Program-made: the position numbers and the translations under genes
Notes under the pieces: model-generated
The model's database searches: none
Told to the model about the DNA's origin: nothing
Seen by the model: only the letters and a program-made list of their open reading frames with translations
Part shown: piece after piece, positions 16,172-25,995 of the stretch
Position numbering within the stretch: the stretch's first letter is position 1
How the letters are laid out: the number at the start of each line of letters is the position of its first letter
NCBI GenBank assembly: GCA_030680355.1
Contig: JAUXVF010000018.1
Location: forward strand, 50,832 to 114,831
Direction: 5' to 3'
Length of the DNA: 64,000 nucleotides
Source: Caulobacter sp.
Lineage (GTDB): Bacteria; Pseudomonadota; Alphaproteobacteria; Caulobacterales; Caulobacteraceae

Positions 16172-18031
16172 ATGAGGACCCTTCAGATGTTGAAGATGAA
16201 ACTGCTCGCGGCCGGCGCCGCCCTGGCCATGGCCGCCGGACTCGGCGGTCTGGCGACGAGCGCCCAGGCCCAGGCCCAGGCCCCCGCCGCCGCCACCGCC
16301 GCCAAACCAACCCCCGCCGAGGCCAGGGCGTTCATCGCCAAGGCCGAGACGGATCTGGCCCGGCTGTCGGAATATGTGAACAAGGCCGCCTGGGTGAGGG
16401 CGACCTACATCACCGAGGACACCCAGTGGCTGGAAGCCAAGGCCTCGTCGGAGATCACCGATATGGCCACGCGACTGGCGATCGATGCCGCCCGTTTTGA
16501 CGGGGTGGTCCTCGACGGCGTCACCCGCCGCAAGCTGGACATTCTCAAGCGCGCCCTGGTGGCGCCGGCGCCGCAACGCCCCGGTGCGGCTGACGAAATG
16601 GCCACCATCGCCTCGCGCCTGGACTCGACCTACTCGACCGGCAAGTTCGCCTACAAGGGCAAGCAGATCACGCTCAACGACGCCGAAGACATCCTGGCCG
16701 AGAGCCGCGATCCGGAAGAGTTGAAGGCTGTCTGGGAAGGCTGGCGCTCGATCTCACCGGGCATGCGCGACGACTATGCCCGTCTGGTGGCCATGTCCAA
16801 CGAGGGCTCCGTTGCGCTCGGATACAAGGACACCGGCGCCCTGTGGCGGTCCGGCTACGACATGGATCCAGACGCCTTCGCCGCCGAGACCGACCGGCTG
16901 TGGAAGCAGATCGAGCCGTTCTACAAGAACCTTCACTGCTACGTTCGGGCCCGCCTGAATGAAAAGTACGGCGACTCCGTCCAGCCGCGCACCGGCCCGA
17001 TCCGCGCCGATCTGCTGGGCAATATGTGGGCCCAGCAGTGGGGCAACATCTATCCGATCGTCGCGCCCAAGAGCACGACGCCGTCCTACAGCCTCGACAA
17101 GCTGCTGGTCGACGCCGACTACGACGCCACGAAAATGGTCAAGACCGGCGAGGCCTTCTATGTCTCGATGGGCCTGGCGCCGCTGCCCGACACCTTCTGG
17201 ACGCGGTCGCAGATCGTCCGCCCGGAGGGCCGCGAGGTGGTCTGCCACGCCTCGGCCTGGGACCTCGATGACGCCGACGACATCCGTATCAAGATGTGCA
17301 CCAAGGTCAACGCCGAGGACTTCTACGTCGTGCACCATGAGCTGGGTCACAACTTCTACCAGCGCGCCTACAAGGATCAGTCGTTCATCTTCCGCGGCGG
17401 GGCCAACGACGGCTTCCACGAAGCCATCGGCGACTTCATCGGCCTGTCGGCCTTGACGCCCACCTATCTCAAACAGATCGGCCTTCTCGACGAAGCGCCG
17501 GGGCCGGAGGGCGACATTCCCTTCCTGCTCAAGATGGCGCTCGACAAAATCGCCTTCATGCCGTTCGGCCTTCTGGTTGATCGCTGGCGCTGGGAAGTCT
17601 TCTCCGGTGAACTGACGCCGGCGCAGTACAATGACGGCTGGTGGGCGTTGCGCACCAAGTATCAGGGCATCGTGCCGCCGGGACCGCGGCCGCAGGACGC
17701 CTTCGACCCGGGCGCGAAATATCATGTGCCGGGCAATGTGCCGTACACGCGCTATTTCCTGGCCCACATCTACCAGTTCCAGTTCCAGCGGGCCGCCTGC
17801 AAACAGGCCGGCTGGAAGGGGCCGCTGCACCGTTGCTCGATCTATGGCGACAAGGTGGTCGGGGCCAGGTTCAACGCCATGATGGAGATGGGTCAGTCCA
17901 AGCCCTGGCCTGAGGCGCTGGAGGCTTTCTCGGGCGAGACCCGCACGGACGCTTCGGCGGTGGCCGAGTATTTCAAGCCTCTGAACATCTGGCTGACCAA
18001 GCAGAACAAGGGTCAGAAGTGCGGCTGGTAA
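16172..18031 (+). CDS. M2 family peptidyl-dipeptidase (ACE-like zinc peptidase)
   Basis: 619 residues with a signal peptide (KMKLLAAGAALAMAAGLGG then AQAQA), so periplasmic. The zinc motif is VVHHELGHNFYQ (HExxH) followed by a glutamate in NDGFHEAIGD, as in angiotensin-converting-enzyme-like M2 peptidases that remove C-terminal dipeptides. Other ACE-like blocks are MWAQQWGNIYPIV and RYFLAHIYQFQFQRAAC. An alternative start MLKMK lies five codons in. It is followed by a terminator and forms a single-gene unit. Confidence 0.92.
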   Translation: MRTLQMLKMKLLAAGAALAMAAGLGGLATSAQAQAQAPAAATAAKPTPAEARAFIAKAETDLARLSEYVNKAAWVRATYITEDTQWLEAKASSEITDMATRLAIDAARFDGVVLDGVTRRKLDILKRALVAPAPQRPGAADEMATIASRLDSTYSTGKFAYKGKQITLNDAEDILAESRDPEELKAVWEGWRSISPGMRDDYARLVAMSNEGSVALGYKDTGALWRSGYDMDPDAFAAETDRLWKQIEPFYKNLHCYVRARLNEKYGDSVQPRTGPIRADLLGNMWAQQWGNIYPIVAPKSTTPSYSLDKLLVDADYDATKMVKTGEAFYVSMGLAPLPDTFWTRSQIVRPEGREVVCHASAWDLDDADDIRIKMCTKVNAEDFYVVHHELGHNFYQRAYKDQSFIFRGGANDGFHEAIGDFIGLSALTPTYLKQIGLLDEAPGPEGDIPFLLKMALDKIAFMPFGLLVDRWRWEVFSGELTPAQYNDGWWALRTKYQGIVPPGPRPQDAFDPGAKYHVPGNVPYTRYFLAHIYQFQFQRAACKQAGWKGPLHRCSIYGDKVVGARFNAMMEMGQSKPWPEALEAFSGETRTDASAVAEYFKPLNIWLTKQNKGQKCGW

Positions 18032-18204: not shown

Positions 18205-19560
18205 ATGAAGACGGATATTTCCGTGCTGGGGCGCGTGAGCAGGTTCCTGCGCGGCTTTCGGCGGGACGACGGCGCGGTCGCCGTGCAGTTCGCGCTGGTG
18301 GCGTTGCCGCTGGCGATCACCGTGTTTGGCGTCTTCGACGTCAGCCGGGCCTCCAACGAGAAGATGCACCTTCAGGACGCCCTCGACGCCGCGGCCCTGG
18401 CGGCGGCGCGATCGCCGGCGACGACCGACAGCCAGCTTCAGGCCATCGGCGCGTCGGTTCTGGCCGCTGACCTCTCGGTGTCGAAGGCGGTGCTCAAGTC
18501 ATCCAGCTTCAAACTGGAAGGCTCGAAGGTCGTCGCCACCGCCCAGGCGACAATCTCTCCCTATGTCGCGGGCCTCTGGCTCGACGGGGACATGGTGCTC
18601 GGCGCGGAGACGGAAGTGACCCGCTCGGCCAACAACCTCGAGGTCGCGCTGGCTCTGGACGTCACCGGCTCGATGTCCGGATCGAAGATCAGCGACCTCA
18701 AGGACGCGGCCAAGGAGCTGGTCGATCTGGTCGTCCAGGACGTTCAGACGCCCTACTACACCAAGCTGGCGATCGTTCCCTACTCGATGGGCGTCAACCT
18801 GGGCGGCTACGCCCAGGCCGCGCGCGGGTCCTACAGCAGCGGGACCTGCACCTCGCCCGGCTGTCAGAACTACAAGTTCACCAACGCCCGGGGCAATCTG
18901 GTGACCTTTCCGATCAGCACCTGCGTGACCGAACGCACGGGCTCCCAGGCCTACACGGACGCCGCGCCCGGCGGCGCGCCCGTGGGCCGCAATTATCCGA
19001 GCACGAACAATCCCTGCCCGTCGGCGACCATCATGCCGCTCTCGACGGACCGTTCGGCGCTTAAGAGCCGAATCGACGATCTGCAGGCGGCTGGGTCGAC
19101 GGCCGGCCAGATCGGGGTGGGGTGGGGCTGGTACATGGTCTCGCCGAACTTCGGCAGCCTGTGGCCCGCGGCCAGCCGTCCGGCGCCCTACGGCACGGAG
19201 AAGCTGCTCAAGGTCATGGTCCTGATGACCGACGGTGATTTCAACACCACCTATTGCAACGGCGTGATCAGCAAGGACGCTGGTTCGGGCAGCGGGTCCT
19301 CCAACGACAAGATCAACTGCAACGCCACCAACGGCGACGCCTTCGCCCAGGCCAAGACCCTGTGCACGAACATGAAGGCGGCCGGCGTGATCGTTTACAC
19401 CGTGGGGTTTGACGTTGGCGGGGCGCAACAGGCGCAGAACCTCCTGCAATCCTGCGCCACTGACGCCAAGCACGTCTATCTGCCCTCGTCGGGGGCCGCG
19501 CTGAAAGACGCCTTCCGCGCCATCGGCCAGGATATTTCCCAGCTTCGCCTGTCCCGCTGA
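18205..19560 (+). CDS. TadG-like von Willebrand factor A protein (array copy 1, no insert)
   Basis: 451 residues. A short cytoplasmic N-terminus (FLRGFRRDDGAVAVQFAL) and one transmembrane helix at about 27-48 fit TadE/TadG pilus-associated proteins (Tad_Flp domain). The A domain follows, with the metal-site motif DVTGSMSGSK at about 151 and MTDGDFNTTYC at about 343. Cysteines in CTSPGCQNY, STCVTER, NPCPS, YCNG, KINC and CTNM are conserved in all three array members and are probably disulfide-bonded in the periplasm. It lacks the repeat insert of copies 2 and 3, joining straight from AARGSYSSG to CTSPGCQ. No other tad genes are in the window. Confidence 0.85.
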   Translation: MKTDISVLGRVSRFLRGFRRDDGAVAVQFALVALPLAITVFGVFDVSRASNEKMHLQDALDAAALAAARSPATTDSQLQAIGASVLAADLSVSKAVLKSSSFKLEGSKVVATAQATISPYVAGLWLDGDMVLGAETEVTRSANNLEVALALDVTGSMSGSKISDLKDAAKELVDLVVQDVQTPYYTKLAIVPYSMGVNLGGYAQAARGSYSSGTCTSPGCQNYKFTNARGNLVTFPISTCVTERTGSQAYTDAAPGGAPVGRNYPSTNNPCPSATIMPLSTDRSALKSRIDDLQAAGSTAGQIGVGWGWYMVSPNFGSLWPAASRPAPYGTEKLLKVMVLMTDGDFNTTYCNGVISKDAGSGSGSSNDKINCNATNGDAFAQAKTLCTNMKAAGVIVYTVGFDVGGAQQAQNLLQSCATDAKHVYLPSSGAALKDAFRAIGQDISQLRLSR

Positions 19561-19605
19561 GCCACGCCGACCGGCAAGGCAATAACGCCGGATTCACTAC
19601 GTCCG

Positions 19606-19628
19606 TTTGCGGATTTCTCACCCTTTCC
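19606..19628 (+). promoter_or_regulatory. Shared upstream element (copy 2)
   Basis: TTTGCGGATTTCTCACCCT, closely similar to the element ahead of array copy 1, 35-57 bases before the second TadG-like start. Confidence 0.35.
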
Positions 19629-19662
19629 GCGCGATGATGAAAGATCGACAGGGTGACGGTCC

Positions 19663-21501
19663 ATGAATCGTGTTGCGAAGCGGTTTGACTCCCGGCCTGA
19701 AAAACCCGTCGTGGGCTTTCTCCGTCGATTCCGGAACGAGAGCGGCGCGGTCGCCATCTGGTTCGCCGTCCTGGCCCTGCCGCTGGCGGTGCTGTCCTTC
19801 GGGCTGATCGACGTCAATCGCGCCAGCGTCGAGAAACGCTACCTCCAGGACGCCCTGGACGCCGCCACCCTGCTGGCCGCCCGCTCGACCGCTGCAACGG
19901 ACAGCCAGCTGCAGAGCATTGGAGCCGCCGCCATGGCCGCCCAGCTCAGCGGTAGCAGTCAGGCCAAGCTGACCTCCACCAGTTTCACGGTCGTCGGCAC
20001 CAAGATCACCGGCACCGCCGTGGCGACGGTCAAGCCCGTCATCGCCAACCTCTGGCTCAAGGGCGACATGACCGTCGGGGCAAAGGCTGAGGTGATCCGC
20101 GCCTCGACCAACCTGGAAGTGGCCGTGGTGCTCGACATAACCGGCTCGATGTCGGGCTCCCGGATCACCGATCTCAAGACGGCGGCGACCGACCTGATCG
20201 ACATGGTCGTGTCCGATGTCCAGACGCCCTACTATTCGAAGGCCGCCATCGTTCCCTATTCGGTGGGCGTCAACGTCGGCGCCTACGCGGCGTCTGCCCG
20301 GGGCGCGGTGACGGCCGGCAAGACCATCACCGCAGCCTCGTGGGCGACCGGGACCGCGAAGACGATCACCGGCTCGACCAAGGCCAACCCGGTCGTGATC
20401 ACCTCCAACGGCCACGGCTTCAGCAACGGCGACGTTGTCTGGATCACCGGCGTCAAGGGGATGACCCAGCTCAACGATCGCGCCTACACGGTCGCCAACA
20501 AGTCGACCAACTCGTTCCAGCTCTCGGGCGTCAACGGGTCGAGCTACAGCACCTACAGCTCGGCTGGAACGGTCCAGAAATGTCAGGTTTCCGACTGTTC
20601 GATCGTGATCACGTCCACCGCGCACGGCTTCAATAACGGCGACAGGGTTCAGATCACCGGGGTCAACGGCATGACCCAGATCAACAACACGACGTTCACG
20701 GTGGCCAACAAGGCGACGAACACGTTTTCCCTGTCGGGGGTCAACGGGGCCGGCTACGGGACCTACAGCTCCGGCGGCACGGCCTACTGCGTCATGGCCG
20801 GCTGCCAATACTACGAGTTTACCAGCGCGACCGGGAGCACCGAGGTCTTCGGTATAAGCACCTGCGTCACCGAACGGATCGGGCTGAGCGCCGCGACCGA
20901 TGTCGCACCGAGCGGGTCTCCGGTCGGGCGCAACTACCCCAGCACGAGCAATCCCTGCCCGTCGGCTTCGATCACGCCGCTGACCAGCGACAAGGTCGCC
21001 CTGAAGAGCCAGATCAACAGCTTCTCGGCGACCGGCTCCACGGCCGGTCAGATTGGTGTCGCCTGGGGCTGGTTCATGGTCTCGCCGAACTTCGCCTACC
21101 TCTGGCCGAGCGGCCGTCAGCCCGCCGCTTACGGGACCAAGGAGTTGGTGAAGGCCGTGGTGATCATGACCGACGGCGACTTCAACACGCCCTACTGCAA
21201 CGGCGTCATCGCCAAGAACGCGGGAACCGGCAGCGGATCGAGTTCCGACAAGATCAACTGCAACGCCACCAACGGAGACCCGGTGAGCCAGGCCCTGACC
21301 ATCTGTACGAACATGAAAGCCAAGGGCGTGGTGGTCTATACGGTCGGCTTCGACGTCGACAAAGGCAGCAGCGCCGAGACCCTGATGAAGGGCTGCGCGA
21401 CGTCGACCGCTCACGTCTACCTTCCTTCGAGCGGCGGCGCCCTGAAGGACGCCTTCGCCGCGATCGGACGTGACATCATGAAACTGAGATTGTCGAAGTA
21501 G
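19663..21501 (+). CDS. TadG-like von Willebrand factor A protein with two inserted FCCH-like repeats (copy 2)
   Basis: 612 residues. N-terminal basic segment, transmembrane helix at about 30-52 and the A domain (DITGSMSGSR at about 158, MTDGDFNTPYC near 500) match copy 1. Between the early A domain and the GCQYYEFT block is an insert of roughly 160 residues, about 215-376, with two tandem repeats: GHGFSNGDVVWITGVKGMTQ and AHGFNNGDRVQITGVNGMTQ, each ending near SGVNG...YS. These resemble the FCCH-like repeats seen in phage and adhesin proteins. Two cysteines bracket the second repeat (QKCQVSDC and AYCVMAGC). Likely anchored in the inner membrane with a periplasmic or extracellular domain. Confidence 0.85.
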   Translation: MNRVAKRFDSRPEKPVVGFLRRFRNESGAVAIWFAVLALPLAVLSFGLIDVNRASVEKRYLQDALDAATLLAARSTAATDSQLQSIGAAAMAAQLSGSSQAKLTSTSFTVVGTKITGTAVATVKPVIANLWLKGDMTVGAKAEVIRASTNLEVAVVLDITGSMSGSRITDLKTAATDLIDMVVSDVQTPYYSKAAIVPYSVGVNVGAYAASARGAVTAGKTITAASWATGTAKTITGSTKANPVVITSNGHGFSNGDVVWITGVKGMTQLNDRAYTVANKSTNSFQLSGVNGSSYSTYSSAGTVQKCQVSDCSIVITSTAHGFNNGDRVQITGVNGMTQINNTTFTVANKATNTFSLSGVNGAGYGTYSSGGTAYCVMAGCQYYEFTSATGSTEVFGISTCVTERIGLSAATDVAPSGSPVGRNYPSTSNPCPSASITPLTSDKVALKSQINSFSATGSTAGQIGVAWGWFMVSPNFAYLWPSGRQPAAYGTKELVKAVVIMTDGDFNTPYCNGVIAKNAGTGSGSSSDKINCNATNGDPVSQALTICTNMKAKGVVVYTVGFDVDKGSSAETLMKGCATSTAHVYLPSSGGALKDAFAAIGRDIMKLRLSK

Positions 21502-21631
21502 ATATCGCTCCGGCCCGGGTCGCGAGGCTCGGCATTCGCCGTAGTCATCGAGCCTATGGACGGCCGGACTCGCGACGCCCAAGCCGATAGTCTCTGAGCG
21601 TCTCGGCGTCTGCTTGCCGAAAATAGGCGGC

Positions 21632-21655
21632 TTTGTTCGCTTTTCCCTTACCCTA
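21632..21655 (+). promoter_or_regulatory. Shared upstream element (copy 3)
   Basis: TTTGTTCGCTTTTCCCTTACCCT, a looser match to the elements before copies 1 and 2, 36-59 bases before the third TadG-like start. Confidence 0.3.
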
Positions 21656-21690
21656 TCGCGTCATCCTTGTGGCCGAAGGGGTGAATTGTC

Positions 21691-23520
21691 ATGACCGATG
21701 CCACGCATCGACCCGCCTTCAGGCTCCCGATGTCTGTCGCGCGATTTCTCCGACGGTTCCGCCATGAGAGCGGCGCGGTGGCCATCTGGTTCGCCGTCAT
21801 GGCTCTGCCCCTGGCGGTGCTGTCCTTCGGCCTGATCGACGTCAACAGGGCCAGCGTCGAGAAACGCCACCTGCAGGACGCCCTGGACGCCGCCACCCTG
21901 TTGGCTGCCCGCTCCACCGCCGCGACCGACAAACAGATCCAGGCCATCGGCGCCGAAGCCCTGGCCGCCCAGCTCAACGGTCGAAAGAACGCCGACCTGT
22001 CGTCGGTCGTCTTCACGATCGTCGGGTCCAAGGTCACGGGCACGGCCAGCGCCAGCGTCACGCCAGTGATCGCCAACCTCTGGCTCCAGGGCGACATGAG
22101 CGTCGGCGCCCGGGCCGAGGTGATCCGCGCCTCGACCAACCTCGAAGTGGCGCTGGTGCTCGACATCACCGGCTCGATGTCAGGCTCGAAGATCAGGGAC
22201 CTCAAGGACGCGGCCAAGGACCTGATCGACATGGTCGTGGCCGATGTCCAGTCGCCCTACTATTCCAAGGCGGCCATCGTGCCCTATTCGATCGGCGTGA
22301 ACCTCGGCGGTTACGCCGCGGCCGCCCGCGGCCCGGTTCGCGGCGGAACGATCACCGACGCGTCCTGGTCCGAGGGCTCGGCCAAGTCGATCAACGGCGT
22401 CACCAAGGGCAATCCGCCGACGATCAAGGTCAATAACCATGGTTTCAGCGACGGCGACGTCGTCTGGGTGACCGGGGTTTCCGGCTCATGGAGCATCAAT
22501 GACCGCGCCTACACCGTGGCCAACAGGACCGCCAACACACTCCAGCTCCTCGGCCATCCGGGCAACAAGTTCAACAGCTACAGGTCCGGCGGCAAGATCC
22601 AGAAGTGCAAGGTCAGCGACTGCTCCATCGTGATCACGGCGAGCAATCACGGCCTTCCCAACGGCGGGCAGGTGTATATCGACGGCGTGAAGGGCATGAC
22701 CGAGATCAACGATCGGACATTCACCGTCGGCGACAGGACGACCAACAGCTTCAGCCTGTCTGGCGTCAACGGCGCCGACTATGACGCCTACAGGTCGGGC
22801 GGGACGGCGAGCTGCACCGAGCTGGGCTGCCTCTACTACGAATTCACCAACGCCAGGGGCGACAAGCGCGTCTTCGAAATCAGCGACTGCGTCACCGAAC
22901 GCACGGGCCTGGGCGCCTATATCGACGCCTCGCCCAACGGCTCGCCGGTCGGCCTGAACTATCCCAGTCCAAGCAACCCCTGCCCGTCGGCGACGATCAC
23001 GCCGCTGACCAGCGACCGGTCGGCGCTGAAGAGCCGGATCGACAGCTTCTCCGCCGCGGGCTCCACGGCCGGTCAGATCGGGGTGGCCTGGGGCTGGTAC
23101 ATGGTCTCGCCAAACTTCGCCTACCTCTGGCCCAGCGCCAGCCAGCCAGCGGCGTACGGGACCAAGGAACTGGTGAAGGCGGTGGTGATCATGACCGACG
23201 GCGACTTCAACACGCCTTACTGCAACGGGGTTGTCGCCAGGGACGCCGCCAACGGATCGAGTTCCGACAAGATCAACTGCAACGCCACCAACGGCGACCC
23301 GGTGAGCCAGGCCCTGGCGCTGTGCACCAACATGAAGGCCAAGGGCGTGGTGGTTTACACAGTCGGTTTCGACGTGAGGTCCGGCAGCAGCGCCGAGACG
23401 CTGATGAAGGGCTGCGCCACCAGCGCCGCCCATGTCTACCTGCCGTCCGGCGGCGGCGCCCTGAAGGACGCCTTCGCCGCCATCGGGCGGGACATCATGA
23501 AGCTGAGGCTGTCGAAATAG
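21691..23520 (+). CDS. TadG-like von Willebrand factor A protein with two inserted FCCH-like repeats (copy 3)
   Basis: 609 residues, same layout as copy 2 and closest to it: transmembrane helix at about 30-52, DITGSMSGSK at about 157, insert at about 213-372, MTDGDFNTPYC near 500 and identical C-terminal SAETLMKGCATS and RDIMKLRLSK. The repeats are more diverged than in copy 2: NNHGFSDGDVVWVTGVSG and SNHGLPNGGQVYIDGVKG. The end-to-end match with copy 2 points to recent duplication followed by change concentrated in the insert. Same strand, 189 bases after copy 2. Confidence 0.85.
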   Translation: MTDATHRPAFRLPMSVARFLRRFRHESGAVAIWFAVMALPLAVLSFGLIDVNRASVEKRHLQDALDAATLLAARSTAATDKQIQAIGAEALAAQLNGRKNADLSSVVFTIVGSKVTGTASASVTPVIANLWLQGDMSVGARAEVIRASTNLEVALVLDITGSMSGSKIRDLKDAAKDLIDMVVADVQSPYYSKAAIVPYSIGVNLGGYAAAARGPVRGGTITDASWSEGSAKSINGVTKGNPPTIKVNNHGFSDGDVVWVTGVSGSWSINDRAYTVANRTANTLQLLGHPGNKFNSYRSGGKIQKCKVSDCSIVITASNHGLPNGGQVYIDGVKGMTEINDRTFTVGDRTTNSFSLSGVNGADYDAYRSGGTASCTELGCLYYEFTNARGDKRVFEISDCVTERTGLGAYIDASPNGSPVGLNYPSPSNPCPSATITPLTSDRSALKSRIDSFSAAGSTAGQIGVAWGWYMVSPNFAYLWPSASQPAAYGTKELVKAVVIMTDGDFNTPYCNGVVARDAANGSSSDKINCNATNGDPVSQALALCTNMKAKGVVVYTVGFDVRSGSSAETLMKGCATSAAHVYLPSGGGALKDAFAAIGRDIMKLRLSK

Positions 23521-23550: not shown

Positions 23551-25995
23551 TCAAGCACCCTGGGCGCTGATCGCGATCGCTTCGTCGGGCCGCTGGGCGC
23601 AGGCCGCTTCGAGGGCGCCAAACAGGGCGTCGGCGGAGACAGGCTTGCTCAGATGGCCATCGGCCCCGACCGCCATCGACGCGGCCACGTGCTCGGGGAG
23701 GGCGTTGGCCGAGAGCGCCCAGATCGGGGTTGAACGCCGCGATCCGGCCGCTTCGATCGCCCGGATCGCGGCGATCGCCGTCAGTCCGTCCATCACCGGC
23801 ATCTGCATGTCCATCAGGATCAGGTCAAAGCACCCTTCCCGGGCAGCCTGGACCGCCTCGGCGCCGTTCTCGACGCTGCTCAACTCGACGCCGGTTCCGG
23901 CGAAGAGCAACTCGACCACCTTTCGGTTGATCGGGTGATCCTCGGCCAGCAGCACCCGCGGCGGACGCGACTCGTCCAGCGCCGGCAGGATCGGCGTGGC
24001 CTTCTGGGCCAGGGGCTCCAGCGCGCCCGGGAGATTGACGGTCAAGGTGAAGCGCGAGCCTGATCCCGGCGTCGACTCCGCCTGAAGGACGCCGCCCATG
24101 GCCTCAGCCAGGGCGCGGGAGATGGCCAGGCCCAGGCCCGTGCCGCCGAAGCGCCGGGTGATGGAGCCGTCAGCCTGTTCGAACCGCTGGAAGAGCCGCG
24201 CCTTAACATCGGCGCTGAATCCAATACCGGTGTCGCTGACAACGACGAACAACCCGCCCTCGCCATCGACCCCGGCCTCGAGCCGGATATGGCCGGTGGT
24301 GGTGAATTTCACGGCGTTGGAGAGAAGGTTGGAGATCACCTGACGGAGACGCACGGCGTCGCCCAGGTAGGCGTCGCCGATCGCCGGATCGATGGCCAGC
24401 TGGAAATCGAGTCCCTTGTCGACGGCGCCGGGCTGGAACAGGGCGGCCGCCGACTTGAGACAGGCGACGAAATCGAATGGCTCCGGTTTCAGCTCCAATC
24501 GGCCCGATTCAATTCGGGCCAGGTCGAGAATGTCGGCCAGCAGAGCCTCGAGGGTCTGGCCGGAGGTCTCGATCAATCCCACCATTTCCGACTGGGCGGT
24601 GTTGAGTTCGGTGCGCGCCAGGGCGGCGGTGACCCCCATCACGCCATTGAGCGGCGTGCGGATCTCATGGCTCATATTGGCCAGGAATTCGCTCTTGGCC
24701 CGGTTCGCCGCTTCGGCCATTTGCCGCGCGCGCTCGGTCGCCGCCTCGACCTGTTTACGGCCGGTGATATTCTTGAGTACGCCCAGAACGCCGTTGACCT
24801 GACCGTCGTCGCCAAGGATCAACTCGGCGGCGGAGAAGGCCCACACTTCCCGACCATCGGGCGTGTTCATCCGGTAGTCGGTCCGGAAGGGGCGACCATC
24901 CTTGAGGTGTTGTTCCCAGCACGCGACAGCGGCGTCCCGGTCATCGGGATGGACGGTGACCCACATGTCGCGGGCGACGTCGTCAAAGGTCATCGCGCCG
25001 CCGAAAAAAGTGTCGGCCGCGCCGTCGTAGGTCAGCGTCCTGGTTGTGTAGTCGACCTCGTAGACAAGCACCTCGGCGATCTCCAGCGCCAGTTTGAGAC
25101 GCTTCTCCGAACGTTTGGCGCGTTGCAGAGACTCGATCACATCGGTGATGTCGTGGCTCATCGAGATCAGGCCGCCGATCTGCCCTTCCCCGTCACGCCA
25201 AGGGCCGATCGCGACCCGCAGCCAGCGATCCGAGCCATCCGATCTGGGGGCTCGCACCTGGTCGGCGGTGACCATTTCGCCGGCGAGGCACTGGTCGTAG
25301 GCCGCGCGGAATCCGGCAAAGGAGGCTGGAAAAACTTCCCCCATCGTCCGGCCGAGGGCGTCAGCCTCGGCTACAGCCTTCTCCCGCACCCATTGGTCGT
25401 TGACATAGAGGTAGCGCAAATCGCGATCTGTCATCGACAGCGATACGGGCGAGGCGTGCATGACGGCGTCCTTCAGGGACGTCGCCGCGCGGGCCTTGCG
25501 TTCGGCGACCTCGGCCTGCCGCTGCGCCCGCAGTCGTTCGATGGCGTCCCCCAGCAGGGCCGCGAGGTCGACAAGGGTGGCCACGACCACTTCGTCGCGG
25601 GCCCAGGGCTCGTTGTTGATGATGCACAGGCCGCCCAGCCGCACGCCATTCGAAAGAATGATCGGCGCCACCGCGTAGCCGCGGACGAAGGGCCAGCCGG
25701 TGACCCAGGCGTGGTCGGGGGCGTCGGCCCTGGCGTCCTCGAGCCAAAACGGCTCTTCGTCATTCAGGTGCCGGGCTGTCGTGGATTCGGCCATGGGAGC
25801 CGTTGAGTAGGGCAGGTCGTCGAGACCGCACTGCCAGACGTGGTCCTCCTCGACCAGCAGGACATAGGCGTAGGGCGCGCCCGAGGCGCGCCGGGCAAGG
25901 CGGGTCACCCGGTCGATCACCGGTTTCAGGGCGTTCAGATCAAGCGAGCGGATTTCCGCCACACGCGCGGCGTCGCTCGGCGCAGTCGGTGCCAT
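23551..25995 (-). CDS. Hybrid sensor histidine kinase (GAF-PAS-PAS-HisKA-HATPase-REC)
   Basis: 814 residues without transmembrane segments, so a cytoplasmic sensor. Approximate order: GAF (25-165, AYVLLVEEDHVWQCG), PAS (175-290), PAS (300-420, with the PAC-like GVLGVLKNITGRK), HisKA with H-box FLANMSHEIRTPLNG (about 445), HATPase (NLLSNAVKF, VSDTGIGF, GGTGLGLAIS) and a C-terminal receiver (VLLAEDHPINRK, LILMDMQMPVMDG with the phospho-acceptor Asp). The histidine likely passes phosphate to its own receiver and on to an unlinked phosphotransferase. No partner regulator is adjacent. It is convergent with TadG copy 3. Confidence 0.93.
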   Translation of the reverse strand: MAPTAPSDAARVAEIRSLDLNALKPVIDRVTRLARRASGAPYAYVLLVEEDHVWQCGLDDLPYSTAPMAESTTARHLNDEEPFWLEDARADAPDHAWVTGWPFVRGYAVAPIILSNGVRLGGLCIINNEPWARDEVVVATLVDLAALLGDAIERLRAQRQAEVAERKARAATSLKDAVMHASPVSLSMTDRDLRYLYVNDQWVREKAVAEADALGRTMGEVFPASFAGFRAAYDQCLAGEMVTADQVRAPRSDGSDRWLRVAIGPWRDGEGQIGGLISMSHDITDVIESLQRAKRSEKRLKLALEIAEVLVYEVDYTTRTLTYDGAADTFFGGAMTFDDVARDMWVTVHPDDRDAAVACWEQHLKDGRPFRTDYRMNTPDGREVWAFSAAELILGDDGQVNGVLGVLKNITGRKQVEAATERARQMAEAANRAKSEFLANMSHEIRTPLNGVMGVTAALARTELNTAQSEMVGLIETSGQTLEALLADILDLARIESGRLELKPEPFDFVACLKSAAALFQPGAVDKGLDFQLAIDPAIGDAYLGDAVRLRQVISNLLSNAVKFTTTGHIRLEAGVDGEGGLFVVVSDTGIGFSADVKARLFQRFEQADGSITRRFGGTGLGLAISRALAEAMGGVLQAESTPGSGSRFTLTVNLPGALEPLAQKATPILPALDESRPPRVLLAEDHPINRKVVELLFAGTGVELSSVENGAEAVQAAREGCFDLILMDMQMPVMDGLTAIAAIRAIEAAGSRRSTPIWALSANALPEHVAASMAVGADGHLSKPVSADALFGALEAACAQRPDEAIAISAQGA

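Follow-up and report, generated by a model that had tools for sequence, protein, structure and literature searches.

In Caulobacter crescentus, CpaL (CCNA_0199) has been proposed as a minor pilin at the tip of the Tad pilus, and it is encoded by an orphan gene outside the cpa cluster (mBio 2025, PMC12607857). Its published layout comprises a pilin-like module (residues 27-147) and a VWA domain (148-203 and 384-626), the latter split by two tandem six-stranded beta-barrels (204-383) and carrying the MIDAS residues D160/T162/S164/T470/D515. In the published model the barrels face away from the MIDAS (PMC12607857). Together with CpaJ/CpaK, the pilin module would hold the protein at the tip of the pilus and leave the VWA head exposed (PMC12607857, PMC13170226). 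Despite its orphan position, cpaL affects piliation and the sensitivity to phage phiCbK, and its deletion stimulates the surface-sensing pathway (PMC12607857).

MIDAS-bearing VWA domains are also located at the tips of different pili, Gram-positive and Bacteroidetes, in the proteins SpaC, RrgA, GBS104, Mfa5 and S. sanguinis PilB. The VWA domains of RrgA and GBS104 also carry insertions. In Myxococcus, Tad pili have several alternative, exchangeable tips per genome, the TadG/Tip (KilN) complexes (PMC12075869).

Here, we analysed a 64,000-nucleotide stretch of a Caulobacter sp. genome (GCA_030680355.1, contig JAUXVF010000018.1), called the window in the following, in which three CpaL/TadG-type genes lie in tandem. 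Their architecture is already known, being that of the published CpaL: a pilin-like module, a VWA split by two barrels, a D/T/S/T/D MIDAS, an orphan position and the same neighbouring genes. CpaL was described as a single gene, whereas the window has three tandem copies, one of them without barrels. The array is a member of the published CpaL kind, in a tandem variant with one barrel-free copy, and the barrels are newly identified. Myxococcus tips likewise contain a large TadG-type minor pilin whose exposed domain is modular and variable, but each tip has a gene cluster of its own, which includes its small minor pilins, and the tips vary in the C-terminal domain (PMC12075869). In the window array, the module that varies is part of the VWA, and the TadG-type gene alone has been multiplied.

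Three CpaL-type genes and their neighbourhood

A preliminary description of the window, made from the sequence, reported three membrane-anchored, TadG-like VWA proteins in a row. The reading frames and domains are as it described, and the TadG-like label holds: a Pfam search placed Tad (PF13400, above cut-off) and TadE (PF07811) at the N-terminus of all three copies, and VWA (PF00092) in their C-terminal part, with copy 2 just below the PF00092 cut-off. A membrane anchor alone does not describe the N-terminus, which is a pilin-like module with an A-x4-F prepilin-type site in copies 1, 2 and 3. The MIDAS is complete in copy 1 (D152/T154/S156/T299/D343), copy 2 (D158/T160/S162/T460/D504) and copy 3 (D158/T160/S162/T459/D503). 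As first reported, the extra residues of copies 2 and 3, about 161 of them, enter at one point, from after residue 214 (AxARG) to the C-x4-C block. The features are as follows.

18205..19560, + strand: copy 1, CpaL/TadG-like, 451 aa, pilin-like N-terminus and VWA, without FCCH
18820..18924, + strand: copy 1 counterpart of the insert site, a short Cys hairpin from C215-x4-C220 up to C240, without FCCH
19663..21501, + strand: copy 2, CpaL/TadG-like, 612 aa, two FCCH domains interrupting the VWA (AlphaFold pLDDT 88.5)
19744..20103, + strand: copy 2 pilin-like module (aa 28-147) with A-x4-F prepilin-type site (PF13400/PF07811)
20110..20304, + strand: copy 2 first part of the VWA, holding the MIDAS D-x-T-x-S, with AxARG at its end
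20305..20787, + strand: copy 2 insert (aa 215-375)
20362..20589, + strand: copy 2 FCCH unit 1 (custom HMM E 1e-35; PF16190; VIA Z 15 to UBA6 FCCH)
20569..20799, + strand: copy 2 FCCH unit 2 (custom HMM E 2e-36; second PF16190 stretch)
20815..21498, + strand: copy 2 second part of the VWA, with MIDAS T460 and D504
21691..23520, + strand: copy 3, CpaL/TadG-like, 609 aa, two FCCH domains interrupting the VWA; sister duplicate of copy 2 (tree 100/98)
22333..22812, + strand: copy 3 insert (aa 215-374)
22387..22614, + strand: copy 3 FCCH unit 1 (custom HMM E 3e-25)
22594..22821, + strand: copy 3 FCCH unit 2 (custom HMM E 5e-34; PF16190)

In the full model of copy 2 (pLDDT 88.5), the FCCH pair comes after VWA strand 2 and a short helix. 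The modelled VWA is nearest to the pilus-tip adhesins named above (Z 18-22), namely Mfa5, SpaC, RrgA and GBS104 (Z 19-22) and PilB (Z 18.5). Copy 1 is a CpaL paralogue without barrels. A promoter scan of the array gave nothing usable.

A same-genus protein (L086, genome G077) is 626 aa long from its first Met, has the five MIDAS residues at the CpaL numbers and carries PF16190; all of the published CpaL landmarks are present. Genes for a 2OG-oxygenase, OmpA and KefB/C lie downstream of both the window array and the CpaL-matching gene (L151), and also at L152 and L157. Judged by its neighbours, the window array sits at the cpaL locus. The preliminary description had pointed out the lack of other tad genes nearby. 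This observation stands, but it is no oddity: missing tad neighbours are normal, as the cpaL of C. crescentus also lies on its own, away from the cpa cluster (PMC12607857). A full cpa/tad cluster is located on another contig (C27), with CpaA, CpaB, CpaC, CpaD, CpaE, CpaF, CpaG/H and two CpaJ/K-like TadE genes. Searching the assembly, which is ~91% complete, with PF13400 gave no match beyond the three array genes. As the sole matches in a genome with a tad cluster, they are its apparent CpaL set; given the completeness, a further TadG may have been missed.

The gene that follows the array directly encodes a GAF-PAS-PAS hybrid histidine kinase (23551-25995, - strand), a candidate linked regulator. 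The same kinase holds this position in most array-bearing genomes whose stretch reaches that far, and is not found beside single cpaL-type genes (L151, L152, L157). The conserved upstream neighbour is an M2 (angiotensin-converting-enzyme family) peptidase (16172-18031, + strand; PF01401, 721 bits).

The barrels as FCCH domains

The insert had been described as two FCCH-like repeats, and the domain searches agree. PF16190 (E1_FCCH) matches the inserts with 94.1 and 66.3 bits (cut-off 29.5; E 5e-27 and 3e-18), sequence matches that far exceed chance. The suggested structure prediction, with the insert modelled alone (AlphaFold, with 21 relatives), returned an FCCH fold with a pLDDT of 93.6. In VIA-align, the model matched the FCCH domain of human UBA6 (7pvn) with Z 15.0 and 1.2 Å over 79 residues, a range that corresponds to the first FCCH unit, the second being matched by sequence; Foldseek agrees. 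A VIA-align match to the tail tube of phage T1 (9l0f) reached Z 11.0. Furthermore, an insert profile retrieves E1 enzymes by sequence (E 4e-9). The insert has both the fold and the sequence signature of the E1_FCCH domains of UBA1/UBA6, at ~20-30% identity. The array proteins differ from these enzymes by having no adenylation or Cys domains, and by carrying FCCH in tandem in a pilus protein, with a C-x4-C pair after each unit that is invariant in 21 aligned inserts.

Homologous domains are also found in phage tail proteins. The Pfam and PHROG tail families PF08813 and PHROG 584 match within the insert only, and tblastn retrieved the FCCH domain in 40 phage records. The best phage match, with 65% identity over ~60 residues, was the tail tubular protein B of Pelagibacter phage Baldr. 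In contrast to the array proteins, the FCCH-bearing phage proteins are virion proteins with other domain contexts, without VWA or pilin module.

Two functional labels that such matches could bring along were rejected. For a ubiquitin-activating E1 function, neither Pfam nor NCBIfam gave an adenylation or catalytic-Cys domain beside FCCH in the array proteins, and the Ube1 model match is confined to the FCCH part (37 bits versus a cut-off of 750). For a phage tail tube or tail tubular protein, matches occur only in the insert, and the neighbouring genes are chromosomal and conserved.

In the CpaL paper, a Dali search of the barrel region gave no strong match, and FCCH goes unmentioned (PMC12607857). 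Based on sequence and predicted structure, the barrels left without an assignment there are FCCH domains. Among the open-access papers searched, we found none that mentions both FCCH and the pilus. Naming the domain connects the beta-region of CpaL with phage tail modules and with a family for which many structures exist.

Distribution and history of the insert

Within the Caulobacteraceae, 26 of 119 genomes have PF16190, and the loci fetched for these matches hold CpaL/TadG-type frames. In a class-wide sample the domain was found in 12 of 289 genomes, and frames there from outside the family do not match copy 1. The search for VWA-FCCH fusions in other genomes, proposed with the preliminary description, was successful: Brevundimonas, Hyphomonas and Devosia have the same insert at the same site. 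The insert is not universal among homologues. Of 164 relatives, 90 have no FCCH unit at the site, 11 have one, 62 have two and one has three, a variation from 0 to 3 that leaves the frame intact. The three-FCCH protein is of the CpaL type (L037:4507-6717). At the same VWA site, the TadG-like paralogues of the Hyphomonas type have a different, unrelated insert, which is ~74 residues long and contains a GKRFFYY motif (L020:7792-9357, L027:7807-9372, L045:1628-3208, and similar). Because the number of FCCH units varies and unrelated inserts occur there, the site behaves as a general insertion point. Some Hyphomonas-like TadG genes are on contigs labelled Acidobacteria or Sulfopaludibacter (L020, L031, L036), which are probably misbinned.

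Many related genomes have two or three TadG-like genes in a row at the locus, both FCCH-bearing and FCCH-free. In several genomes, the array also includes a further, divergent TadG-like gene without FCCH, which has other inserts (L007:9325-10800, L018:6054-7523, L153:11378-12955, L154:8526-10280). With several candidate tips at this locus in many Caulobacter-type genomes, CpaL is not always single.

Copy 1 had been taken to show the un-inserted state, and the phylogeny points the other way. On a tree of the protein bodies (69 rows, insert columns excluded), copies 2 and 3 are sisters (100/98), which points to a fairly recent duplication. Copy 1 is nested, together with its orthologues, in a Caulobacteraceae clade (99/99; inner 99/89) that otherwise consists mostly of FCCH-bearing proteins. 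AU tests rejected both a single clade of Caulobacteraceae FCCH-bearers without copy 1 (p = 0.004) and a single clade of all FCCH-bearers (p = 6e-6). Since copy 1 is nested among FCCH-bearers and the AU test rejects the alternative grouping, a secondary loss of FCCH is probably the simplest and better reading of its sequence. The main alternative is gene conversion among the tandem genes: copy 1 would be ancestral and never inserted, copies 2 and 3 would have gained FCCH, and conversion would have drawn copy 1 into the FCCH clade. Tandem genes can indeed convert one another, and un-inserted homologues from Pelagibius and Hyphomicrobium share the short hairpin region. A deletion remnant would speak for loss, and here the picture is mixed. 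The YSSG-x-C stretch of copy 1 resembles the end of an FCCH unit, but the same hairpin is present in un-inserted Pelagibius proteins and the FCCH profile gave no match in the hairpin region of copy 1, so that a clear FCCH remnant is lacking, as an ancestral copy 1 would have it. However, in most other species the copy-1 orthologue does not group with the FCCH-bearing genes next to it, and both AU rejections stand against an ancestral copy 1, which we consider unlikely.

The preliminary description also stated that the repeats diverge faster than the flanks, as in a surface or recognition module. The faster divergence was confirmed. Between copies 2 and 3, identity is 60% in the insert and 84% in the VWA flanks, and among 19 independent closest pairs, most show lower conservation in the insert than in its flanks (a median of 12 points, Wilcoxon p = 2e-5). 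The insert also has more four-fold silent differences (median +0.08, p = 3e-4, 19 pairs), a signal to which misalignment of the insert could add; single pairs deviate both ways. For copies 2 and 3, dS is 0.99 in the insert and 0.43-0.64 in the flanks. Positive selection on the insert was rejected, with a dN/dS of 0.33 (copy 2/copy 3), below 1. Because silent sites are raised too and dN/dS is below 1, the comparison with a recognition module is only partly borne out, and the rapid change of the insert may have causes other than selection on binding. The raised silent divergence suggests more than selection alone, namely that insert alleles were exchanged or that the flanks were homogenised. The tree topologies hint at cassette exchange without settling it: the flanks reject the insert tree (p = 3e-6), but the insert does not clearly reject the flank tree (AU p = 0.06).

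Candidate roles at the pilus tip

We consider it likely that the three genes are tandem CpaL/TadG-type minor pilins at the cpaL locus that serve as pilus tips, with FCCH as a contact module and copy 1 having lost its barrels. After cleavage by the prepilin peptidase, the N-terminal pilin module would assemble with CpaJ/CpaK, the two TadE-like minor pilins, at the far end of the Tad pilus and so present the MIDAS-bearing VWA at its tip. The tips made from copies 2 and 3 would be extended by the two FCCH barrels that their VWA strand-2 loop holds, with a Cys pair after each; these barrels may serve as an exchangeable module that contacts a surface, a cell or a phage. The tip made from copy 1 would have lost the barrels. 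By analogy with the C. crescentus work, we infer that the array proteins would be located at the Tad-pilus tip; ligand contact by FCCH and the use of the copies as alternative tips are likewise putative.

The main rival to a contact role is that the FCCH pair would have no specific ligand and would act in a mechanosensing tip, as a structural spacer or as a stack that bears force; it would stiffen or lengthen the VWA head, keep the tip outside the secretin and report tension. The stimulated surface-sensing pathway of the cpaL deletion fits such a role, as does the published CpaL model, with its barrels turned from the MIDAS (PMC12607857). CpaL may chiefly prime the pilus and sense force, and FCCH would then be a passive spacer. 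A spacer would also tolerate 0 to 3 in-frame units, and the invariant Cys pairs behind each unit are consistent with it. A passive spacer would not need to diverge beyond its flanks, though, as the insert does in most of the 19 pairs, and many genomes keep an FCCH-free tip beside an FCCH-bearing one. The spacer is possible, but we favour the contact role. It is quite improbable that the array proteins have no relation to the Tad machine and are instead VWA adhesins anchored in the envelope, or secreted surface proteins. The genes do lie outside the tad cluster, but the equally orphan cpaL of C. crescentus affects piliation and phiCbK sensitivity (PMC12607857). Moreover, the prepilin-type site is conserved, and the genome contains no other Tad-domain gene although it possesses a tad cluster with its TadE pair.

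We tentatively propose that the VWA strand-2 loop of TadG/CpaL could be a module socket, in which FCCH cassettes, as homologues of phage tail domains, come and go, multiply (0-3) and are swapped between species. Tandem cpaL genes might then provide alternative tips, whose cassette sets the contact and possibly phage adsorption. The natural versions with 0, 1, 2 and 3 units, together with the barrel-free copy 1, allow a comparison of contact and spacer roles. The beta-region of CpaL belongs to a candidate surface sensor of a model bacterium. If the socket proposal is true, the FCCH cassette would decide what the tip touches, and possibly which pilus-dependent phages adsorb.
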